Shown here: in pieces, positions 1 to 37,302 of the stretch
Layout of the letters: every line of letters starts with the position of its first letter
Numbering within the stretch: position 1 is the stretch's first letter
NCBI GenBank assembly: GCA_009703125.1
Contig: WLGS01000005.1
Coordinates: forward strand, 1-37,302
Length of the DNA: 37,302 nucleotides
Reading direction: 5' to 3'
Source of the DNA: Actinomycetota bacterium
GTDB taxonomy: Bacteria; Actinomycetota; Acidimicrobiia; Acidimicrobiales; Ilumatobacteraceae
Position numbers and translations under genes: made by a program
Notes under the pieces: generated by a model
The model's input: the letters and a program-made list of their open reading frames with translations, nothing else
Told to the model about the DNA's origin: nothing
Database searches by the model: none

Positions 1-2705
1 CGCCCACGTATTCAGGTTTTGTGAATAGCCAAACTGCAGCAGTGTTCACTACAGCACCTGCATGTTCGACTGACTATACGAACACCACTCCGGTGGCCGA
101 TAGTGGTATTGCGACGACGTGTTCGGGGGCTGTCGCTGCGAACTACTCCTTTACTTACACCGCCGGCGCAATCACGATTAACCGCAAGGGCCTCACTGTG
201 ACTGCATCCTCGCATCCTGTGACGTATGGTGATGCGACTCCGACAGTGTCTCCGTCGTACAGCGGTTTTGTGAATAGCCAAACTGCGTCGGCGTTCACTA
301 CAGCACCGACATGTACCACCGCTTATACAAACACCACGCCAGTTTTGAGTAGTGGTATTGCGACTACGTGTTCGGGGGCTGTCGCTGCGAACTATTCGTT
401 CAGCTATAGCCCGGGTGCGATCACGATTAGCCGAAAGGGTGTAGCTGTAACTGCATCCTCGCACCCAGTGACTTATGGCGATGCCACTCCTACTGTGTCT
501 CCGTCGTACTCAAACGATTTTGTTAATGGCGACACATCGCTAGTCGTTTCACAAACAAATTGCACCACATCGTATGGAACAACAACTCCGGTTTCGAGCA
601 GTGGTATTGCGACTACGTGTTCTGGTGCTGTAGCTGCGAACTATTCATTCACCTATAACCCAGGTGCAATCACGATTAACCGCAAGGATCTCACTGTGAC
701 CGCTTCGTCGTTCATAGTGACGTATGGTGATGCAACCCCGACAGTGACGCCGTTGTATACAGGTTTTGTGAATAGCCAAACCGCGTCGGTTCTCACTACA
801 GCACCTACGTGCACCACGACTTATACAAACACCTCGCCGGTTTCGAGCAGTGGTATCGCCACTGCTTGTTCTGGTGCTGTAGCAGCGAACTATTTGTTGA
901 GTTATGTAGATGGCGCAATCACGATTAACCGTAAAGTCCTTACTGTGACTGCGTCGTCGTTTCCTGTGACGTATGGTGATGCGACTCCTACGGTGTCTCC
1001 GTCGTACAGCGGTTTTGTGAATAGCCAAACCGCGTCGGTGCTCACTACAGCACCGACGTGTATCACCGCTTATACAAACACCACGCCAGTTTCTAGTAGT
1101 GGTATTGCGACTACGTGTTCGGGTGCTATAGCTGCGAACTATTCGTTCAGCTATAGCCCGGGTGCGATCACGATTAACCGCAAGGACCTTACTGTGACTG
1201 CATCATCACATATTGCTACGTATGGTGATGCAACTCCGACAGTGACGCCGTCATACAGCGGTTTTGTCAATAGCCAGACTGAGTCGGTTGTGACTACAGC
1301 ACCGACGTGTTCCACGGCTTACACAAACACCACGCCGGTTTCTAGTAGCGGTATCGCGACTACGTGTTCGGGTGCTGTCGCTGCGAACTACTCCTTTACT
1401 TACATCGCCGGTGCAATCACAATCAACAAGAAATCACTGACAGTTACCGCTTCATCGCCCGCTGTTCCCTATGGTGCAGCGGTTAACACAGTCACGGTGA
1501 CACCACAAGTATCTGGGTTCGTCAACAGTGAAACGCAATCAGTTATTGACACGATTCCCTCGTGCACTACGGCATACGCGGTGACTTCCTCGGTGGGCTC
1601 GGCGCCGTTTACGCGTTGCAGTGGAGGCTTGGACAACAACTACATGTTTGAATACTTTGACGGTGCAGTTGATGTTGTCCGAGCACAAGTGACAATTACT
1701 GCGGACTATCAGACTGCTGTATACGGTGTGGCACTGGGGCAGTCGGTCACGGTCAATGGTCTTGCAAATAGTGATGCTGTGCTGTCGGTGGTGTACACCT
1801 ACGAGGGCACAGGCCAAACAACATATGCCGCATCAACCACACGTCCGGTCAATGTGGGTACATACTCCATCACGCCGTCATCTGTCACGCTCTCGGCAGG
1901 ATCTGCGTCGAACTATTCGTTCCACTACGCCGCAGATACAGCTGTCATCACGAAAAAAGGCATCGTAGTGACGGCATCATCACCGATGGTGATTTACGGC
2001 GATCCCATCCCCACCGTGACTGCGTCATACTCAAGTGATTTTGAGTATGGGGACACATCGTTAGTGGTATCAGGCACCTCGTGCACCACCACTTATGCGT
2101 CGACATCAAACGTAGGCTCGTTGCCTGGTACATCGTGTTCGGGTGCCACTGCAGATAACTACTCGTTCACTTATGTAGCTGGTGCGGTGAATGTGACGAG
2201 AAAACCAATCACAGTGACTGCGTCGTCGGACACTGTGACTTATGGCGATGCAACCCCCACAGTGACACCGTCGTATAGCGGATTTGTGAATAGCCAAACT
2301 GCTTCGGTGTTAACCACAGCACCGACGTGTACCACGGCTTACACAAACTCCACGCCGGTGGCCTCTAGTGGTATTGCAACTACGTGTTCTGGTGCTGTCG
2401 CTGCGAACTACTCCTTTAATTACACCTCGGGTGCAATTCTCATTAACCGCAAAGGTGTAGCGGTGACTGCGTCGTCACACACTGTGACTTATGGTGATGC
2501 AACTCCTACAGTGACACCGTCGTATAGCGGATTTGTGAATAGCCAAACTGCAACAGTGTTAACGACAGCACCGACATGCTCAACGGCTTATACAAACTCC
2601 ACATCAGTTTCGAGTAGTGGTATTGCAACTTCGTGTTCCGGTGCTGTTGCCGCCAACTATTCATTTACTTACAACTCTGGTGCAATCACAATTGACCGTG
2701 CAGAG
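1..2705 (+). repeat. Tandem array of about 249-bp coding repeats (MBG-type units)
   Basis: Unit boundaries, taken at the conserved V-T-A-S-S stretch, fall near 192, 441, 690, 939, 1188, 1437, 1689, 1962, 2208 and 2457, with a partial unit before 192. Most units are 249 bp (83 codons); units starting at 1437, 1689 and 1962 are 252, 273 and 246 bp. Units 2-6, 10 and 11 are very similar at the DNA level, including runs such as tttgtgaatagccaaac. Units 7-9 are diverged. This is direct internal duplication within one gene. Confidence 0.9.
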
Positions 2706-5700
2706 CAGTCCACGGTGACGGTGAGCGCCACGGATACGACTATCACGTGGCAACCTGGACCTAATTTTGCCACTACCACATTGGTGGGCGATGGTGGCGA
2801 TGGTGATGGTGCTTTCACCTATGTGGTGACATCAACTTCAACGGTGTGTTCCATAGATGGATCGACCCTAACCGCTCTCACGGCTGGCGTGTGCAAGGTA
2901 ACTGCAACTAAGGCAGCAAGCGTGAACTTCAATCAGAAAACCTCAGCTGAGTTCAGCTACAACATTAATAAGGCATCACAGACCATCACCTTTAATGCAC
3001 TGTCTTCTAGGACGTACGGTGACGGATCGTTCGTTGTGACAGCAACTGCAACATCAGGTTTAACTGTGTCCTTTGCGGCAAATACAAGTGTGTGTGCCGT
3101 GGGAACTTCCACTTTGTCGGGAGGTGTCTCTAGTGCCACTGTGACGATTGTGGCAGCGGGATCTTGTGTGCTCACTGCATCACAAAACGGAACCATTAAC
3201 TATTTGGCCGCAACAGCACAATCTGGTTCGGCTCTCAGCCGAACTTTCACTATTGCGCCCAAGAATCTCACAATTACAGGAGCAACTGCTTCCAATAAGT
3301 TCTATGACGGCAGCGACACAGCAAGTGGAAGTCTCGCCGACGCTTCACTGGATGGAATTTCATTCTCTGATGATGTGTCAATTGCTCAAACTGGTTTCAC
3401 CGCAAGATTTAGTGACGCAAACGCGCAGGACAACAAACTTGTGACGTTTGCATCTGTGACCTTGCAGGGTTCAAAGGCTGCGAATTACACAGTGACCCAA
3501 CCCACAGCAGTTGCTTCAATCAATCAGGCGACGTCAGGCTTGGCTTGGTCAACACCCACGGCAGTGGAGTTTGGTACCACGTTGGGCGGGGCGCAGTTGA
3601 ATGCGACCCATGCAGTCGTTGGAACCGTGATGTACAGTCCCGCACCCGGAACACGCCTTAATGCCGGTAATCACACATTGTCGGTCACTTTCACACCGTC
3701 GTCGGCCAACTATGCCATTGAAACCCGCACCGTGACACTGCGGGTGAACAAAAAGCCCGTTGTTATTACTGCGACTGACCGCGATGTGGTGTACGGCAAC
3801 ACATTCACTCCAGCATTCACCAGCTCTGATTTGGTGGGCAACGATGCGACGGATCAAGTGGTGTACACCTATGCGGGAACAGGTTCGACGGCGTATCCCG
3901 CTTCCTCAACCTCTCCGGTGAACCGTGGCAGCTATTCGATAACACCCTCGGCACTCACGCTTTCGGTGGGGGATATCAACAACTATGAAGTGACCTACGT
4001 AGCTGGCGTGCTGACAATTACTCAGGCCCAACAAGGTGCTCTTGCTGTGGCAGCAGCTAGCAACGGACTTACGTATAGTCCTGCTCCGTCACGTGCGACT
4101 ACTACTTTGTCAATGCCGGTGGGTTCTACGGGAAGCGGTACCGGAGTGGTGACATATTCGGTCGTCACGGGTAACACAGTGTGTTCCATTTCAGAAAGCA
4201 CCGTGACGGCTCTCACTGCTGGTGAATGTACGGTTGCAGTTACTCGTGCTGCAGACCTGAACTTCTTCACTAAGACCAGCCAGACAATAACAATCACGAT
4301 TGCTCGAGCTACACAACAAGTGACCTTTGCACCTATCACCACCAAAACCTATGGTGATGATTCATTTGCAGTATCACCCACGGCAACATCTGGCTTAACA
4401 GTTTCTGTGGTGTCTTCGGACACCAGTGTGTGTGACGTGCCTACAGCGCTTACGATTCGTCTCGTGAGTGTGGGTACATGCACTCTGGTGGCAGCACAAG
4501 TGGGAGATATTAACTACCTATCTGCAACTGCGGCAACAGGTTCAAATTTGGTGCGTAGCTTTACGGTGTCGCAAAAGATGTTGACCTTGTCCGGAGTGAC
4601 TGCGGTAAGTCGTGAATATGACGGCTCACGCAATGCAACTCAGCAACTCCGATTCGGTGGAGCACAATTCGTTGGAGTGGTCGGAGCAGATGACGTGTCG
4701 CTCAACTCGTTGAATGCATCGGGTTCTTTTGCGGTCAAGACAGTTGGAGTCAACAAGCCAGTTACCGTTGGTGGGCTGACATTGTCGGGCAGCCATGCAC
4801 ACCGCTACACGCTGGCAGCACCTGTCGATGTTGTGGCAACAGTTACTCAGGCACCATTATCAACTGTGGGAGTTACGGTTGCGCCGCGACGTTACAACGG
4901 AAGTGATCTGGCAACAGTGGACACCACGGCGGCAGGTTTTTCTGGTGTAGTCGCTGGAGACATCGTGACATTCGTTGACACGAATAAGCATGGTCGATTC
5001 AATGATGCGCTTGTGGGGACGAACAAGACGGTGACCGTTACCGGAATTACAGCCCAAGGTGCCGATGGCGGGAACTATCGAGTGCCAGACTTTACAGTGA
5101 CGTCGTCAATTCTGGCTCAACCTCTCACGGTGACGGGGATTACTGCTAGTTCACGTGAATACAACGGATTCTTGAACGTGAACGCAACGTCTATCGTGAA
5201 CCTTGCACAGGCACAACTCAACGGCGTGGTGCAAGGAGATGGCGTCACTCTCAATGTCAACAACGCCACAGCGTCATTTACTACGGGTGCCGCGGAAGCC
5301 AACAAAATTATTGCAGTCTCTGGGGTCACGATCTCTGGCCCCGAGGCTTCGAACTATGAGCTCATGGCCATCACGGTGAATGGCTCGATTACACAAAGAG
5401 CGCTCACAGTCTCAGGTGTGGCGGGCACAAATCACGTCTATGACGGTTCAATCAATGCGACATCGATTATCGACATGACCCAGGCAACGCTGGTGGGAGT
5501 CGTTGCTCCTGACGCGGTGGAGATTTCCTCAAATTCGATGCAGGCAGAGTTCGCAACACCTGTTGTAGAAGCAAACAAGACGGTCACAGTGTCTGGCCTT
5601 GTACTCACTGGCACTCGGGCAGCCAACTACTCGCTTGTTCAACCAACGGTCACCGCTGACATTGTGCGTCGTGAAGTTTCGGTAACTGGGTTTACGGTTG

Positions 5701-6968
5701 CATCTAGGGAATACAACGGAACTGTTGGTGCGACAGCGCTGATGAATTTGGTTGGTTCAACGCTCACGAATACCGTGCAAGGTGATGATGTGGCCGTTGT
5801 AACTGGGGCTGCAACAGCAACGTTTACCACCAAGAGTGTTGGCACAAACAAGGCGGTGACTCTTGCGGGTTTTGCGCTTACAGGAACAGACTCGAGCAAC
5901 TACCGCATACGTCAACCATCTGCGAATGCATCAATTACCGCACGTGCACTTACCGTCTCGGGAATTACAGCTTCCGACAAGATCTTTGATGGCACAACAG
6001 GCGCCACAATTTCGGTAGCAAGTGCTGGAATAAGCGGCGTCCTGAATAACGACGTTGTTGTGATTGACACGACTAATGCAGTCGGCAACTTTGTAGACGC
6101 CCAAGTGGGATCGAACAAGATGGTTCGTATCAGTGGAGTAGCAGTGACGGGTGTTGACGGACCTAACTATGTGGTGACACAGCCCACAACAACTGCCACC
6201 ATCATTACGGCCGTTACCGTGTGGATGGATTATCGCGCAGAAGTACCAGTGTCTTCTGCGGAACAACCTGTGCTGCGTCTTGCTGCACCTCAAGTGCTGC
6301 CACCGGCACCTGCACGAGTCTCCACACAAAGTGTTGCGGGCGGAAGATCTACACGTGTGACAGCAGTTCGCGCAGTACAAGATGCAGCAATTCCTGTAAC
6401 ACACGCGATCATTACTGTGCACTCCAGCAGGAACAGAGTTCTTGCACGTATCAATGTGCGTGTAGATCCCACTAACCCCACAACATCGGTAACGGTTCCA
6501 TATGCGCGCCGTAATGTGCGCGTTTCGGTGCAGTTTGCAAACGACATTGGAATTTCAAAGGGTGGACCAAGTGGAGTCAATGTCACCCAAGGCAATACCT
6601 TTGAATGGGCCGCAGTAGATGGTCGCCCGCAAATTCGTGGCACTGAAGTCCCAGGTTCATTGATCTTTAATCGAGGTTCTAGCACCTTGACAAACTCAAT
6701 GAAGTCGGCACTGAGCAGCATGGCTCGTACCGTGAGTAGTCGAGGTGGACTGGTATACGTGACTGGATTTGCTCAAAATGGTGAAATCGCAAGTGCATGG
6801 CGTCTTGAATCGCTGGCGCAAAAACGCGCCGAAGTCGTGGCAAGATATTTGACGTCACTTGGCGTGCGGCAATGGGTTACTTTCCAAGGCCACGCAGGTG
6901 TCCGAAGCCCATGGAACACTGCTCGGGAGCGTCGTGTTGCGGTGAGTACAGAGCCATTTTTTGGCTGA
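1..6968 (+). CDS. Giant exported MBG/YDG repeat protein with C-terminal OmpA-like domain (5' partial)
   Basis: The reading frame is open from base 3 at the left edge, in the middle of a repeat, so the true start and any signal peptide lie outside the window. The 2321 visible codons hold, in order: about eleven MBG-type units (to about 2705), Ig-like segments with a G-x-C-x-V-T-type core (2706-3260), one YDG-type unit (about 3261-3510), more Ig/MBG-like sequence (3511-4570), six more YDG-type units recognised by Y-[DN]-G motifs (4575-6210), a Pro/Ala/Val-rich connector, and an OmpA-like domain (about 6650-6968). MBG and YDG domains are known from large bacterial adhesin and surface proteins. 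An extended stalk held at the cell wall by the OmpA-like end is an inference. The OmpA-like end keeps an Arg-Arg pair near the terminus, but the usual Asp after the GH/GF turn is replaced (GFAQ). Domain class is fairly sure; ligand unknown. Confidence 0.85.
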   Translation, partial: PTYSGFVNSQTAAVFTTAPACSTDYTNTTPVADSGIATTCSGAVAANYSFTYTAGAITINRKGLTVTASSHPVTYGDATPTVSPSYSGFVNSQTASAFTTAPTCTTAYTNTTPVLSSGIATTCSGAVAANYSFSYSPGAITISRKGVAVTASSHPVTYGDATPTVSPSYSNDFVNGDTSLVVSQTNCTTSYGTTTPVSSSGIATTCSGAVAANYSFTYNPGAITINRKDLTVTASSFIVTYGDATPTVTPLYTGFVNSQTASVLTTAPTCTTTYTNTSPVSSSGIATACSGAVAANYLLSYVDGAITINRKVLTVTASSFPVTYGDATPTVSPSYSGFVNSQTASVLTTAPTCITAYTNTTPVSSSGIATTCSGAIAANYSFSYSPGAITINRKDLTVTASSHIATYGDATPTVTPSYSGFVNSQTESVVTTAPTCSTAYTNTTPVSSSGIATTCSGAVAANYSFTYIAGAITINKKSLTVTASSPAVPYGAAVNTVTVTPQVSGFVNSETQSVIDTIPSCTTAYAVTSSVGSAPFTRCSGGLDNNYMFEYFDGAVDVVRAQVTITADYQTAVYGVALGQSVTVNGLANSDAVLSVVYTYEGTGQTTYAASTTRPVNVGTYSITPSSVTLSAGSASNYSFHYAADTAVITKKGIVVTASSPMVIYGDPIPTVTASYSSDFEYGDTSLVVSGTSCTTTYASTSNVGSLPGTSCSGATADNYSFTYVAGAVNVTRKPITVTASSDTVTYGDATPTVTPSYSGFVNSQTASVLTTAPTCTTAYTNSTPVASSGIATTCSGAVAANYSFNYTSGAILINRKGVAVTASSHTVTYGDATPTVTPSYSGFVNSQTATVLTTAPTCSTAYTNSTSVSSSGIATSCSGAVAANYSFTYNSGAITIDRAEQSTVTVSATDTTITWQPGPNFATTTLVGDGGDGDGAFTYVVTSTSTVCSIDGSTLTALTAGVCKVTATKAASVNFNQKTSAEFSYNINKASQTITFNALSSRTYGDGSFVVTATATSGLTVSFAANTSVCAVGTSTLSGGVSSATVTIVAAGSCVLTASQNGTINYLAATAQSGSALSRTFTIAPKNLTITGATASNKFYDGSDTASGSLADASLDGISFSDDVSIAQTGFTARFSDANAQDNKLVTFASVTLQGSKAANYTVTQPTAVASINQATSGLAWSTPTAVEFGTTLGGAQLNATHAVVGTVMYSPAPGTRLNAGNHTLSVTFTPSSANYAIETRTVTLRVNKKPVVITATDRDVVYGNTFTPAFTSSDLVGNDATDQVVYTYAGTGSTAYPASSTSPVNRGSYSITPSALTLSVGDINNYEVTYVAGVLTITQAQQGALAVAAASNGLTYSPAPSRATTTLSMPVGSTGSGTGVVTYSVVTGNTVCSISESTVTALTAGECTVAVTRAADLNFFTKTSQTITITIARATQQVTFAPITTKTYGDDSFAVSPTATSGLTVSVVSSDTSVCDVPTALTIRLVSVGTCTLVAAQVGDINYLSATAATGSNLVRSFTVSQKMLTLSGVTAVSREYDGSRNATQQLRFGGAQFVGVVGADDVSLNSLNASGSFAVKTVGVNKPVTVGGLTLSGSHAHRYTLAAPVDVVATVTQAPLSTVGVTVAPRRYNGSDLATVDTTAAGFSGVVAGDIVTFVDTNKHGRFNDALVGTNKTVTVTGITAQGADGGNYRVPDFTVTSSILAQPLTVTGITASSREYNGFLNVNATSIVNLAQAQLNGVVQGDGVTLNVNNATASFTTGAAEANKIIAVSGVTISGPEASNYELMAITVNGSITQRALTVSGVAGTNHVYDGSINATSIIDMTQATLVGVVAPDAVEISSNSMQAEFATPVVEANKTVTVSGLVLTGTRAANYSLVQPTVTADIVRREVSVTGFTVASREYNGTVGATALMNLVGSTLTNTVQGDDVAVVTGAATATFTTKSVGTNKAVTLAGFALTGTDSSNYRIRQPSANASITARALTVSGITASDKIFDGTTGATISVASAGISGVLNNDVVVIDTTNAVGNFVDAQVGSNKMVRISGVAVTGVDGPNYVVTQPTTTATIITAVTVWMDYRAEVPVSSAEQPVLRLAAPQVLPPAPARVSTQSVAGGRSTRVTAVRAVQDAAIPVTHAIITVHSSRNRVLARINVRVDPTNPTTSVTVPYARRNVRVSVQFANDIGISKGGPSGVNVTQGNTFEWAAVDGRPQIRGTEVPGSLIFNRGSSTLTNSMKSALSSMARTVSSRGGLVYVTGFAQNGEIASAWRLESLAQKRAEVVARYLTSLGVRQWVTFQGHAGVRSPWNTARERRVAVSTEPFFG
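4575..6210 (+). repeat. Array of six diverged YDG-type protein repeats
   Basis: Six units of about 270 bp start near 4575, 4849, 5119, 5397, 5670 and 5945. Each opens with a strand like LTVSGI followed about ten residues later by Y/F-D/N-G, and ends with a N-Y-x-[VIL] strand. A seventh related unit lies apart at about 3261-3510. The units are recognisable in protein but no longer similar as DNA, so this array is older than the 249-bp array in the same gene. Confidence 0.75.
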
Positions 6969-32348: not shown

Positions 32349-33317
32349 TTAGAGAGATTGCAAAAACTCATCAATGTGATGCACGTGTTGCTGTAGTCCT
32401 TGGCGCCATGTCGAAAACCACTCGGCAGGAATTTCTGCAGCAATCGCGCCGAGATATTCAAGAACTGCTTCGGGTATACCTTCAACTTGAGGTGCGAGTT
32501 CGTTATACAACACAAAATCACTGCAGCCTTGATGTGGGGCATGTACAAGATCAATGCGACGTGATTGTTGTGCGGCGTTGTCTGTACGCGCTTGAAGAAT
32601 GCTCCACGCAGGGTCAGCATCTGTATGTGGCGGTGTGGTGAGATCGGCTTGTCCGACAAGCAACAACGTGGGTCGTGCAAGAGATGTAAAGAACTCAGTC
32701 GCCATTGTTCTGGAAAAAGCCTGGGCTACCACGGTGGCACGTACACGCTCATCTGGGGTGTACTCATGCAAATACGACGTAGTAGCAAGTGCAGAGAGCC
32801 CGCCGTAACTGTGGCCGCCCACAAAGACTCTGTGTGGGTCTACAGAGCCCGTGAGCCATTCCGTGAGCGCACTGTGGTGACCAAGTGCTGCATCGATACA
32901 GAGGCGCAGATCACCTTGGCGATTCCGCTCGTTAGTCACGTCGTCCACGTTGTTTCCGAGGAACCAATCAAAGAGTCCATCGCCGGGGTGGTCAGGTGAG
33001 ATCACGATGTAGCCACGGGAGGCGAGTGCTTCACACAAAAGGCTGTAGTTGTGGCGTGTGCCTGTACGGCCATGTGACCACACGATGAGTGGATGGGTCC
33101 CAGGGCTGACAGGGGAGTCTTCATGGGCGCTTGCCGAGGTGAAGCGCACACCGGGGATGAGTTCGTATTCGGTGACGGTGCCCGAATCTGTGGATGCGGG
33201 ATACCAAATGTCGATGCCCAACAATCGGTCATTACGTGCTGGGTCAACTGTCAACGTGGAGACATGGCCCACCCGATGTGTGAGTGTCTCAAGTGGTGGT
33301 GCAGAAGAGAGTGTCAT
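32349..33317 (-). CDS. Alpha/beta hydrolase, PAF-acetylhydrolase/dienelactone-hydrolase-like
   Basis: A 322-residue alpha/beta hydrolase without an obvious signal peptide. The fold is marked by P-L-I-V-W-S-H-G-R-T-G (oxyanion region), S-P-D-H-P-G-D, and the nucleophile elbow G-G-H-S-Y-G-G (Ser170). Asp225 (G-Q-A-D) and His262 (H-A-P-H-Q-G-C) are good candidates for the rest of the triad. The pattern resembles platelet-activating-factor acetylhydrolase-like esterases. The substrate is unknown. The gene lies 53 bp after the delta-60 gene on the same strand; an imperfect inverted repeat sits in that gap. Confidence 0.88.
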   Translation of the reverse strand: MTLSSAPPLETLTHRVGHVSTLTVDPARNDRLLGIDIWYPASTDSGTVTEYELIPGVRFTSASAHEDSPVSPGTHPLIVWSHGRTGTRHNYSLLCEALASRGYIVISPDHPGDGLFDWFLGNNVDDVTNERNRQGDLRLCIDAALGHHSALTEWLTGSVDPHRVFVGGHSYGGLSALATTSYLHEYTPDERVRATVVAQAFSRTMATEFFTSLARPTLLLVGQADLTTPPHTDADPAWSILQARTDNAAQQSRRIDLVHAPHQGCSDFVLYNELAPQVEGIPEAVLEYLGAIAAEIPAEWFSTWRQGLQQHVHHIDEFLQSL

Positions 33318-33330
33318 GGCAAGACCAACA

Positions 33331-33355
33331 GATACATCACGCGGTGAAATGTATC
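33331..33355 (-). promoter_or_regulatory. Imperfect inverted repeat before the alpha/beta hydrolase
   Basis: GATACATCAC (33331-33340), GCG, then GTG-AA-ATGTATC (33344-33355): ten paired positions with a two-base bulge. It starts 14 bp upstream of the hydrolase ATG and 15 bp before the end of the repeat protein's gap. Either an operator or an RNA hairpin; there is no U run. Confidence 0.4.
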
Positions 33356-33370
33356 AGGGTGAGTGAGAAG

Positions 33371-36300
33371 CTACGACACCTTTAGGGTGAGTGTTCTTGT
33401 GGTCTTTTTCTTTTGGACCGTGACTGTCACCGCAACTCTGCATGTACCAGTTGCCGTCGCAATGACTCGAGATCGTGCCACTTGGCAGACTCTGCCAGTT
33501 CGAGACGTCATCGAGACTCTGCCACCTCTGGGAACTGCCATGTTCAATCGCTGCAACACATCGGACTGGCGAACAGAAATTCTCAAGGCGATGTCATTGT
33601 TTGCACCGGTACTGAAAGTTGGAGTGGTTGTAGGAACAGAACTAGTAGGTGGTGAGGTTGTTGGTGTTGAAGGCGGGGCAGGGTCCGATTGTGTCAGTGC
33701 GATGCACGATGTCGATCGAACGCTGGGAGAATGAGTGCCTGTGGGGCAAGGAATTTGAATAGAAGATCCCTGCACTGGAACAAAATGATTGATGGCTGCA
33801 TCAAGACAGGTGACGGCTCTCGTATTGGGTTGATACGTGCCTGCAGGGCAATCAATTGAGGCGGTAGCACCGTACAAAGTTTGGAATGAACCCGACGCTG
33901 CAGTTGTGCACGGAATGAACCCAGATGTAGAGAATGTGCCCGGTGCACATTTAGATCTCAAGACGACACTGGTAGCGGTTGCATTTGCTTTTGGCCCACC
34001 GATTGCACTTCTATAACTAATGGACACCGTGTAAGTACCATCAGGCATTCGTGCTGTTGAGTTTGCCGCTCCTGCAATCTCGGTCGTAACTGCACTTGCC
34101 CATGCATTGTTCAAGATTCCTGCGTCAGGCTCTAAAGGATCGAAGGTCACATTGAGTGATTGGCGATCCGTGACAGAGATAGCACGTGATGCTCCACCAT
34201 TGTCAGTAGTTGTCAAAATGATGTGAATTGACCCAGCCAACACTGTGTCAGGAAATGAACCAGTAACTGTAAATGCAGTTGGAGTGAGTTCATATTGAGC
34301 TCCATTGGTCGGTGCTAACAATGTCGGAGCAGTAGTTGTTGGTGGCATCTGATGCGAGACCTTCATAACAACACCTGTTTTCAACCCATTCTCTTGGGTA
34401 AAGCCCGTGACAAGACTGGTTGAATTAGTCAACTTTTCGATGTTGTAAAAATTTGAATTATTGCTTGGAGCATTAAGCACTAGACCTCCTGAGCCAAAAG
34501 TTGTATCAAGTGCTGCGTTTGAGCCCAACTTCGCAACCATGGAGAACTGTTGTCTGCCTTCGTCATCTATCGAGCCTCCGCCAGCAACAAGAATGCTGTC
34601 CCCAGACACCACCATGGCGTTTACATAGCTATAACTGACGGTGCTCGGGTCGCGAAGCACAAAGAATGAGTATCCCGTTGAATTGAATGTGGTGTCAATG
34701 GATCCATCGGAATTCAATCTCACAATGACGCTTCGCTCAGGTAATGGATCATCTTCTGCCTCCCCTAAGAGCATCACTTTTCCATCGTCATTCACAACTA
34801 GATCAGTAATCCAGTCAATTGTGTTTTCGGCGGATCGATTCCAAGTGCGACGTCCAGTGGAATTGAAATTTGTATCTGGTGAACCATCTGAATGAAGGCG
34901 CATCACTACTGAGTGAATCTGTTGATTTATTCTGGTGCTGATTGTGAAATACACGGCACCATTCGGCGCAGGATAGATCGCTGCACTCCAGCCTTCCCCC
35001 TCATTATTCGTTGGCTGAATTGTTGTGTCTAATGTGCCATTTGATTGATACCTGTACAGCCAAGGCAACGTGTAATTTTCGCGACGATCGACTCCAAGCA
35101 AAATTTTCCCATCTGATTGAACAACAAGGTTGGATGAATATAGTTCTGCGGTCTGATCAGTTGTGACGGTACGACCGTTTGTTCCGAAATCGGTGTCTTC
35201 TGAACCATCAGAATTTAGTCTCCATAGAACAAGTTCTGATTGGTAGTTGTAGTTTTGTGCGGAACCGACAGCAAGAATTTTTCCATCTGGTTGAACTGTC
35301 ACGTCAGATAACCAAAACTGTCGCTCCTCATGAACAGGGCTTAAGTATGAATATCCACCGAGACCAAATTGTTGGTCCATAGTGCCCATCACAGTCAATT
35401 TAAAGATGACACCTCGTTGGATTCCTAACTCACTTTCCGCGTACCCAAGGACAATGATGGAACCGTCTGATTGTGGAATTGATTTGTAAGTCTCTACGGA
35501 CCATCGAGGAAAGTAAAAACGGACGTCTGGTGTTTGAAATGAATTAACCACCGTTCCTGTGGGTGTGAACATTGTTGCAAAGAATCTTCTATTTGTTGTG
35601 TTACCACCAACGATGAGTACATTCCCCAAGCTGTTCACAAGCAAGTTATGGTTTCTGACAGTGTCATTAGACGGAGTCCATAAACACGGTGTGCAGTTCG
35701 GAGAAGTTGGTTCGTCGCCTGACGACGTGAATGTGACGTAGCCGGTGGCGTTGTTGACATCGACAGGAAAGACAATGTTTCCATTTGGAAGTAGGTCAAC
35801 TACAGGAACAAATGACGTCGATTGGTCAGTCTGAAGTTGCGTGAGAGCGAAACCATCTGAGGAGAACGATTCATCTGGTGTTCCATCTGCATTGAATTTT
35901 GCCATCCCGTAATAGCTAGGCCCAGAATAAAAAGTTCCTGCGGTACCGGCAAGATAAAACGAGTCATCTCCCAGAGGAAGAATGGCGCTCATTAGAGCTT
36001 CATTCTCGGTTGCGAAATTCACTTTTACGAGACCATTGCCATTTCCTGATGGTCCATCAAAGAAGAAATCACGAAATCCTCCAGGTGTCAATTTAATGAG
36101 AGTGATTTGCCGGTCTTGGTTGGCATTAAAAGATGATCCCACTGCGATGAGTGAACCATCATTGAGCACTTGCATGTCCAAAAGAATTGACGATCCTGGA
36201 GCAGTGCCTGTCCACGGGGTCACCTCACGACTGCCGTTGCTAGCCCAGTTGGCTCTGATTTCTCCATCTTGAGTCATGGACATGAAGGTGAAGGTGTAGT

Positions 36301-36898
36301 AGGGGATGTAGGAGCCGTTCTCTTGGCTCGTAGTAGGAGAATGAAACCCCAAGTAGATGACTTCGTATTTTGCGTCGTACCGAAGTAACAACTTTGAGCT
36401 AGAACCAAGCATCTTGCCAGGAAAACTTCCAATTGTTTTAGATCCATTAGTGCCGAAGGTTGTGTCCACTAATCCTGATGTAGTGATTCGTGTGATGAAA
36501 ATCTGCGGGAGAACATTGCCCGGGACGTAACCGGCGACGAGGATTTTTCCATCTCCCTGCACTTGCATAGATGCTTGAGACAATTCAAATATTTCACTTC
36601 GACCAGAATCACCAAATGTTGTATCGATGCTGCCGTTAGCGAGTAGACGAACAACTGCAACTTGGGAAAAATCTATTTCAAGAAGGCCAAGGAGTCGTCC
36701 CGATTCGTCTTCAACGACCTCCGTTACAGAAGTGGTTGATTCCAGATTTGGGAGTGTCAATTCGGCAACGCCATTCGTACCGAACTCTTGATCGAACGGA
36801 GCTGGAACCGAAGCATGAACTGGTTGGACCTGTGTCAACATCAAGGAGGTCGAGGTAACTATCAATGCGACCAGAAGTCGAAAATAGCGATGTTTCAT
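33371..36898 (-). CDS. Exported delta-60 repeat protein with Cys-rich and C-terminal modules
   Basis: A 1175-residue protein. The signal peptide (basic start, hydrophobic 8-22) ends at about V-H-A (29). Residues about 34-851 contain roughly fourteen delta-60 repeats with the core D-G-S-x-D-T-x-F-[GN]-x-x-G. The best copies are near the N-terminus and at about 570-840; several in the middle are degenerate. Next come an Ig-like segment (852-983), a Cys-rich region with C-P-x-G-T motifs like GCC2/GCC3 ephrin-receptor-type repeats (984-1065), a Pro/Thr/Ser linker (1066-1098) and a C-terminal domain with the G-T-C-R-V pattern (1099-1175). Delta-60 repeats are thought to form beta-propeller-like folds; here they could form a surface binding platform. 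No cell-wall anchor motif is evident. Twin palindromes lie in its upstream region next to a TetR gene. Confidence 0.88.
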   Translation of the reverse strand: MKHRYFRLLVALIVTSTSLMLTQVQPVHASVPAPFDQEFGTNGVAELTLPNLESTTSVTEVVEDESGRLLGLLEIDFSQVAVVRLLANGSIDTTFGDSGRSEIFELSQASMQVQGDGKILVAGYVPGNVLPQIFITRITTSGLVDTTFGTNGSKTIGSFPGKMLGSSSKLLLRYDAKYEVIYLGFHSPTTSQENGSYIPYYTFTFMSMTQDGEIRANWASNGSREVTPWTGTAPGSSILLDMQVLNDGSLIAVGSSFNANQDRQITLIKLTPGGFRDFFFDGPSGNGNGLVKVNFATENEALMSAILPLGDDSFYLAGTAGTFYSGPSYYGMAKFNADGTPDESFSSDGFALTQLQTDQSTSFVPVVDLLPNGNIVFPVDVNNATGYVTFTSSGDEPTSPNCTPCLWTPSNDTVRNHNLLVNSLGNVLIVGGNTTNRRFFATMFTPTGTVVNSFQTPDVRFYFPRWSVETYKSIPQSDGSIIVLGYAESELGIQRGVIFKLTVMGTMDQQFGLGGYSYLSPVHEERQFWLSDVTVQPDGKILAVGSAQNYNYQSELVLWRLNSDGSEDTDFGTNGRTVTTDQTAELYSSNLVVQSDGKILLGVDRRENYTLPWLYRYQSNGTLDTTIQPTNNEGEGWSAAIYPAPNGAVYFTISTRINQQIHSVVMRLHSDGSPDTNFNSTGRRTWNRSAENTIDWITDLVVNDDGKVMLLGEAEDDPLPERSVIVRLNSDGSIDTTFNSTGYSFFVLRDPSTVSYSYVNAMVVSGDSILVAGGGSIDDEGRQQFSMVAKLGSNAALDTTFGSGGLVLNAPSNNSNFYNIEKLTNSTSLVTGFTQENGLKTGVVMKVSHQMPPTTTAPTLLAPTNGAQYELTPTAFTVTGSFPDTVLAGSIHIILTTTDNGGASRAISVTDRQSLNVTFDPLEPDAGILNNAWASAVTTEIAGAANSTARMPDGTYTVSISYRSAIGGPKANATATSVVLRSKCAPGTFSTSGFIPCTTAASGSFQTLYGATASIDCPAGTYQPNTRAVTCLDAAINHFVPVQGSSIQIPCPTGTHSPSVRSTSCIALTQSDPAPPSTPTTSPPTSSVPTTTPTFSTGANNDIALRISVRQSDVLQRLNMAVPRGGRVSMTSRTGRVCQVARSRVIATATGTCRVAVTVTVQKKKTTRTLTLKVS

Positions 36899-36906
36899 GA
36901 TGTCCC

Positions 36907-36930
36907 ATTTCTAGATGACTATCTAGAAAT
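36907..36930. promoter_or_regulatory. Proximal TetR-type operator (24-bp palindrome)
   Basis: ATTTCTAGAT (36907-36916), spacer GACT, ATCTAGAAAT (36921-36930): perfect 10-bp arms. The inner core CTAGAT-N4-ATCTAG is identical to that of the second palindrome at 36936-36963. It lies 9-32 bp upstream of the delta-60 gene ATG, where a repressor would block transcription or translation start. Confidence 0.7.
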
Positions 36931-36935
36931 GTACC

Positions 36936-36963
36936 GTAGAACTAGATAATTATCTAGTTCTAC
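36936..36963. promoter_or_regulatory. Distal TetR-type operator (perfect 28-bp palindrome)
   Basis: Bases 36936-36949 (GTAGAACTAGATAA) are the exact reverse complement of 36950-36963. The core CTAGAT-AATT-ATCTAG shares half-sites and spacing with the proximal site. The two centres are 31 bp apart, close to three helical turns, so two dimers would bind the same DNA face. The palindrome overlaps the stop codon of the upstream TetR gene. No U run follows, so a terminator role is less likely. Confidence 0.75.
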
Positions 36964-37302
36964 TTTTGGGGGTTCATCAAAGTTCTGAGAACAAGAACAA
37001 TTGCTTCATTAATGGAATCGGATAAATCCTCACGTTCGGTGATGTCCACAAGAACTCGGCCAATGAACATCGCTTGGGTGAGGTAGACAATCGTCTCAAT
37101 TTCGATCTTTGGTTTGATAAGGCCTTGTTGTTTGGCCATCTCGTAAGAGTCGACCAAGTACTGAGAACCCTTTATTTGGGAATCAGCCAACATTGCTCTC
37201 AAGTTGTCGTCCTCCATTGATGCAGCAATTGTGCGAATGCGACGACCTCTTTGATCGAGCATGGCATCTGATCCCAGAGTACGAATGAAAACACTCAACA
37301 AA
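36960..37302 (-). CDS. TetR-family regulator, C-terminal part (5' partial)
   Basis: The frame is open to the right edge of the window, so the N-terminal DNA-binding domain is outside. The visible 114 codons are helical and fit the C-terminal ligand/dimer domain of TetR proteins: R-R-I-R-T-I-A-A-S-M-E-D-D-N-L-R, then M-A-K-Q-Q-G-L-I-K-P and the final helix S-I-N-E-A-I-V-L-V-L-R-T-L. The call rests on this pattern and on the TetR-type operators that directly follow the gene, since the helix-turn-helix is not visible. It lies 61 bp upstream of the delta-60 gene on the same strand and is its likely regulator. Confidence 0.65.
   Translation of the reverse strand, partial: LLSVFIRTLGSDAMLDQRGRRIRTIAASMEDDNLRAMLADSQIKGSQYLVDSYEMAKQQGLIKPKIEIETIVYLTQAMFIGRVLVDITEREDLSDSINEAIVLVLRTLMNPQK

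Follow-up and report, generated by a model that had tools for sequence, protein, structure and literature searches.

Twin palindromes between a TetR-family regulator gene and a giant surface-protein gene are probable operators in a member of the Ilumatobacteraceae

How is a giant, presumably surface-exposed repeat protein controlled when its gene follows that of a TetR-family regulator after an intergenic gap of just 61 bp (36899-36959), and when two closely similar palindromes lie in that gap? The window analysed here, the whole stretch of 37,302 nucleotides, is the entire contig C96 of a draft genome of 1,928,738 bases in 150 contigs (94% complete), and the contig end cuts the regulator gene. 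The features on which the argument turns are as follows.

33371-36898, minus strand: presumed target, a protein of 1175 residues with delta-60 / DUF5122 repeats and an N-terminus that looks secretory (secretion judged by eye)
36902-36906, minus strand: GGGAC, which by sequence alone may be a weak ribosome-binding site for the giant gene
36906-36931 (36931-36906 in target-gene sense), no strand: site B, two 11-bp palindromic arms separated by a 4-bp spacer
36928-36933, minus strand: TACATT, putative -10 box between the sites, touching the outer arm of site B
36936-36963 (36963-36936 in target-gene sense), no strand: site A, perfect 28-bp palindrome of two 14-nt arms
36951-36956, minus strand: TAGATA, putative -35 box within site A, with four of the six letters of TTGACA
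36960-37302, minus strand: C-terminal part (113 residues) of the TetR-family regulator, whose gene runs off the contig and whose orthologs match TetR_N

Site A has the core CTAGAT-AATT-ATCTAG and runs into the stop codon of the regulator (36960-36962), while site B, with arms at 36906-36916 and 36921-36931 around the spacer GACT, has the core CTAGAT-GACT-ATCTAG; the shared 16-bp core recurs at 31 bp, whether measured from start to start or between centres. The initial annotation had described two palindromes with common CTAGAT-N4-ATCTAG half-sites and centres 31 bp apart, which the sequence bears out, and of its coordinates 36936-36963 stands, whereas the second palindrome, given as 36907-36930, extends one base further on each side. 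Of the interpretation built on them, the TetR identity, the conservation and the type of target are supported below, but the "phase-like" character of the surface protein is not, as no tandem array that could slip is present at 33000-37302, and each palindrome is its own mirror image, so that its inversion would alter little. Promoter boxes and further pairs of TetR and secreted-protein genes did not figure in that interpretation.

The genome search for CTAGAT-N4-ATCTAG that had been proposed returned two exact copies of the core CTAGATNNNNATCTAG, both in this gap, versus none for the reversed control pattern, and no third exact site across the 1.93-Mb draft genome. A dispersed repeat or mobile element is thus ruled out, as is a regulon of exact sites within this genome. 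None of 300 dinucleotide shuffles matched the gap's best inverted repeat; when up to two mismatches were allowed, 7 of 100 window shuffles also gave at least two matches, although the real pair has no mismatches. Chance origin is ruled out by conservation, the strongest point being that both sites are kept in all six orthologous gaps.

This conservation emerged when the regulator fragment was searched in 61 genomes, the window's own included. Close TetR matches, with 51-66% identity, were obtained in five other genomes (G024, G017, G008, G013 and G026), and in each of them the TetR gene is followed by a giant gene in the same direction, with both sites between, so that the proposed alignment of related gaps recovers the twin sites in every relative found to carry this TetR. 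The centre spacing over the six genomes is 31, 31, 31, 31, 32 and 32 bp, and the inner core letters TAGAT...TCTA are identical in all 12 sites. The exact core pattern finds four of the five relatives, a single core mismatch being present in each G008 site and in site A of G024, G017 and G026; among 100 genomes it has one further match, in G095, within a coding frame. In addition, the 16-mer core of site A in G026, CTAGATATATATCTAT, occurs again at L149 (contig C60, 2853-2868), 47 nt before the start of a secreted-looking protein of at least 1034 residues, where no adjoining TetR gene was seen; this protein is a possible second target in trans, in G026 only.

The downstream proteins are 27-72% identical to that of the window (in G013 over 133 residues only, where its contig ends). 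The description of the downstream gene as a 1175-residue delta-60 protein agrees with its DUF5122 match, a domain matched by all five of the downstream proteins scanned, those of G000 (the window's genome), G024, G017, G008 and G026. The giant protein (33371-36898) also has a sub-threshold match to Ephrin_rec_like, a domain that PMC6993872 mentions for an Ilumatobacter protein. By eye, many large secreted proteins of the genus (L031, L034, L038 and the window's) have similar ends with the pattern GTC-V-VTV and lysines, which may be a common C-terminal module. Another very large open frame, of at least 2321 residues, occupies positions 3-6968 of the window and is cut by the other contig end.

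Is the regulator, of which the window holds just the C-terminal part, a TetR protein? A Pfam scan of the visible 113 residues gave no match, and a TetR profile search located a fitting N-terminal half on another contig of this genome, at the end of C100, with model positions 6-94 on C100 and 100-211 on C96. By translation, the C100 stretch contains a normal TetR helix-turn-helix, SVNFNLENVLRESGVSRGSLYHHFGSRHGLI; since the ends of C96 and C100 do not overlap, their adjacency is deduced from homology. TetR_N is matched by all five full orthologs, with a score of 25.7 bits for the first member (cut-off 24). The structural model of the G008 ortholog has an all-helical TetR fold (pLDDT 87), and the 50 matches listed for it in the PDB are TetR-type or related putative regulators, with query-length TM-scores of 0.37-0.61. 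The upstream protein is accordingly TetR-like, as had been proposed, with its 5' end now checked through the helix-turn-helix on C100 and the orthologs. Within the regulator frame lies a 20-nt inverted repeat (36997-37016 / 37213-37232; 90% complementary, 196 nt apart), which may be due to chance. Contig C100, which carries the start of the regulator gene, holds no site with up to two mismatches, and autoregulation through these palindromes is unlikely because such sites are absent upstream of the regulator's own gene.

Pairs of this kind are not confined to the six orthologous loci. A profile of 16 TetR proteins, run on 32 genomes of the genus, gave 26 matches of at least 180 bits, the window's split gene lying outside these 26. 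In 14 of them the next gene downstream is co-directional and encodes a secreted-looking protein (its frame shortened by a contig end in two cases), one is cut before the downstream gene, and the remaining 11 are arranged differently, in some instances with a convergent gene for a surface-like protein; the labels "secreted" and "surface-like" were assigned by eye. Among ten downstream proteins scanned, four of which belong to the main orthologs, DUF5122, Kelch, Ig-like or glycine-rich regions were found, and one had no domain. In a survey of the family, for which 200 genomes were drawn, all 12 TetR matches outside the genus were inspected: five have a secreted-looking downstream gene, four do not, one is cut and one could not be parsed, and in L171 (read as L011) the first 54 residues of such a downstream gene are visible.

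Inverted repeats that no more than 5 of 300 shuffles attained are present in 6/6 main gaps (three of which, those of G017, G013 and G026, pair best between site A and site B), in four of nine paralogous cassettes (L012, L013, L132 and L138) and in one of 12 control gaps; for the other five paralogs the repeat was reached in 18, 27, 87, 97 and 217 of 300 shuffles. The motif TAGAT-N3..6-ATCTA occurs in 6/6 main gaps, in three of 14 other cassettes (L017, L143 and L172) and in none of 16 controls, and L173, from another genus, carries CTAGAT and ATCTAG arms that are wider apart. A clear operator is therefore not evident in every cassette. Switches of a similar type apparently accompany further giant surface proteins in the family. 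We also offer, tentatively and as a doubtful reading, a broader idea: copying and divergence, repeated several times, would have given the family a set of dedicated switches, each pairing one TetR regulator and a private operator with a giant surface protein built of repeats, and each signal would call up another giant coat.

The position of the sites relative to the promoter bears on how they might act. A strict sigma-70 scan of the region found no promoter. A TANNNT box lies between the sites in all six gaps, 29 nt (four genomes) or 31 nt (two genomes) before the start codon, and TAGATA, contained in the left half-site of A, precedes it by 17 bp (four genomes) or 18 bp (two genomes) in every case; the -35 box was chosen by a loose rule, and three of the six gaps contain further TANNNT words. 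Among the 14 further TetR cassettes, the distance from the end of TANNNT to the start codon is exactly 6 nt in 10 and 7 or 8 nt in two, and two have no such box nearby; a fifteenth cassette, L011, again has it at 6 nt (start codons were taken from open frames, those of L012, L013, L017 and L011 by our own choice). A 6-nt spacing has been reported for leaderless genes, which make up on average 19% of Actinobacteria genes (PMC3160421). By applying this 6-nt rule from the other cassettes to the window's giant gene, transcription is predicted to start near 36921, inside site B. Given these positions, one site would cover the -35 box and the other the predicted start.

Taken together, we consider it likely that the palindromes are operators through which the adjacent TetR-family regulator represses the giant gene. 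We favour this reading because the sites adjoin the TetR ortholog in 6/6 genomes while the downstream proteins have drifted, because spacing and inner core letters are fixed, because the orthologs have the TetR_N domain and the TetR fold, because the sites overlap TAGATA-N17/18-TANNNT in 6/6 gaps, and because exact sites within the draft genome are confined to this gap, with the looser motif found also in three of 14 other cassettes but in no control. One dimer or two bound at site A would cover the -35 box, and one or two more at site B the transcription start; with the sites about three helical turns apart and on the same face of the DNA, RNA polymerase would be kept off the promoter of the giant surface protein, until a ligand released the regulator and the gene came on. 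Binding by this regulator, repression, cooperativity and induction are what we infer from this arrangement. Against it, the -35 box has just 4/6 consensus letters and the strict scan was empty, the symmetry extends past the conserved core with changing letters, the paralogs L013 and L132 have nearly the same recognition helix but very different repeats, and 11 of the 14 other cassettes are without TAGAT-N3..6-ATCTA. The sites might also be operators at which the regulator activates the giant gene, or to which another regulator binds, as the direction of control is unreadable from sequence and site A covers the -35 region; we hold this to be improbable, since the location of site B on the predicted start and the edge of the -10 box would fit a repressor, and the regulator gene accompanies the sites in 6/6 genomes.

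The extended symmetry deserves separate consideration. The arms of the sites are symmetric to 12-13 bp, yet their outer letters vary from one genome to another and, within a genome, from site A to site B. Eleven positions from the centre, 12/12 sites pair (GC 4, TA 4, AT 2, CG 2) versus 3.3 expected, and the covariation score exceeds all 500 shuffles as well as slid controls, although two of the five measures of that count are ordinary (both-side changes as high in 130/500 shuffles, further pair types in 484/500). A single base-reading protein does not explain symmetric arms with changing letters, whereas RNA hairpins would account for them, as would template switching. The palindromes could thus work as RNA, namely as twin hairpins by which an mRNA shared by the regulator and the surface protein is terminated, protected or tuned, and this would agree with the covarying arms and with the predicted folding of the strand (z = -7.7 as a whole, -14.8 and -11.1 kcal/mol for the two hairpins); the core letters, however, are nearly invariant, hairpins require neither a common core nor a fixed 31-32 bp spacing, and the covariation, with its two ordinary measures, comes from six related genomes only. 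Moreover, a start inside site B would leave the target's own mRNA without a full hairpin, and no intrinsic terminator (G+C-rich stem and T run, the type covered by the scan) is found at 36800-37302, though shuffles average just 0.4. We therefore regard a role as RNA as improbable.

Template switching between the arms of a constrained core, by which functionless outer arms would have arisen, is not a rival to operator function but an addition to it, and to this we give slightly less than an even chance. Such switching has been described as making imperfect arms alike (PMC8604942), and for the most part the arm letters set G000/G024/G017/G008 apart from G013/G026, with several bases changed together; the rather sharp drop of pairing past 12-13 bp in the pooled sites speaks against it.

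If the operator reading is correct, a giant surface protein from an uncultured lineage can here be assigned a concrete putative operator and promoter, and the repeated pairing of TetR regulators with large secreted proteins hints at a regulated change of the cell surface. Here we speculate that such a change might be directed against grazers or phages. Among the papers listed in literature searches on delta-60 repeats and on TetR control of surface proteins in Ilumatobacter and freshwater Actinobacteria, no report of such control was found.

Comparison with well-studied regulators places the arrangement in a wider context. The Tet repressor acts on tandem tet operators and resembles the present locus in having two palindromic operators on one promoter region, but its promoters are divergent, its target is drug efflux and it regulates itself. 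TetR regulators of the QacR and CprB type bind long operators as pairs of dimers (PMC4150764), and share with our case the TetR fold, the extended operator DNA and, as proposed here, two dimers on one control region. The spacing of 31-32 bp is compatible with this pair-of-dimers subclass, although CprB places both its dimers on a single 22-bp site, whereas here two separate palindromes lie 31-32 bp apart. MAB_4384 of Mycobacterium abscessus, likewise an actinobacterial TetR regulator, has a 27-bp palindrome beside its gene and controls its neighbour (PMC5895659), which is also the presumed relation here; it differs in having one palindrome, divergent genes, an efflux-pump target and self-repression, in contrast to the co-directional genes and the surface protein of the present locus. 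We thus see in this locus a familiar type of switch in unusual surroundings, in which the twin sites are very probably the operators of the adjacent TetR regulator.
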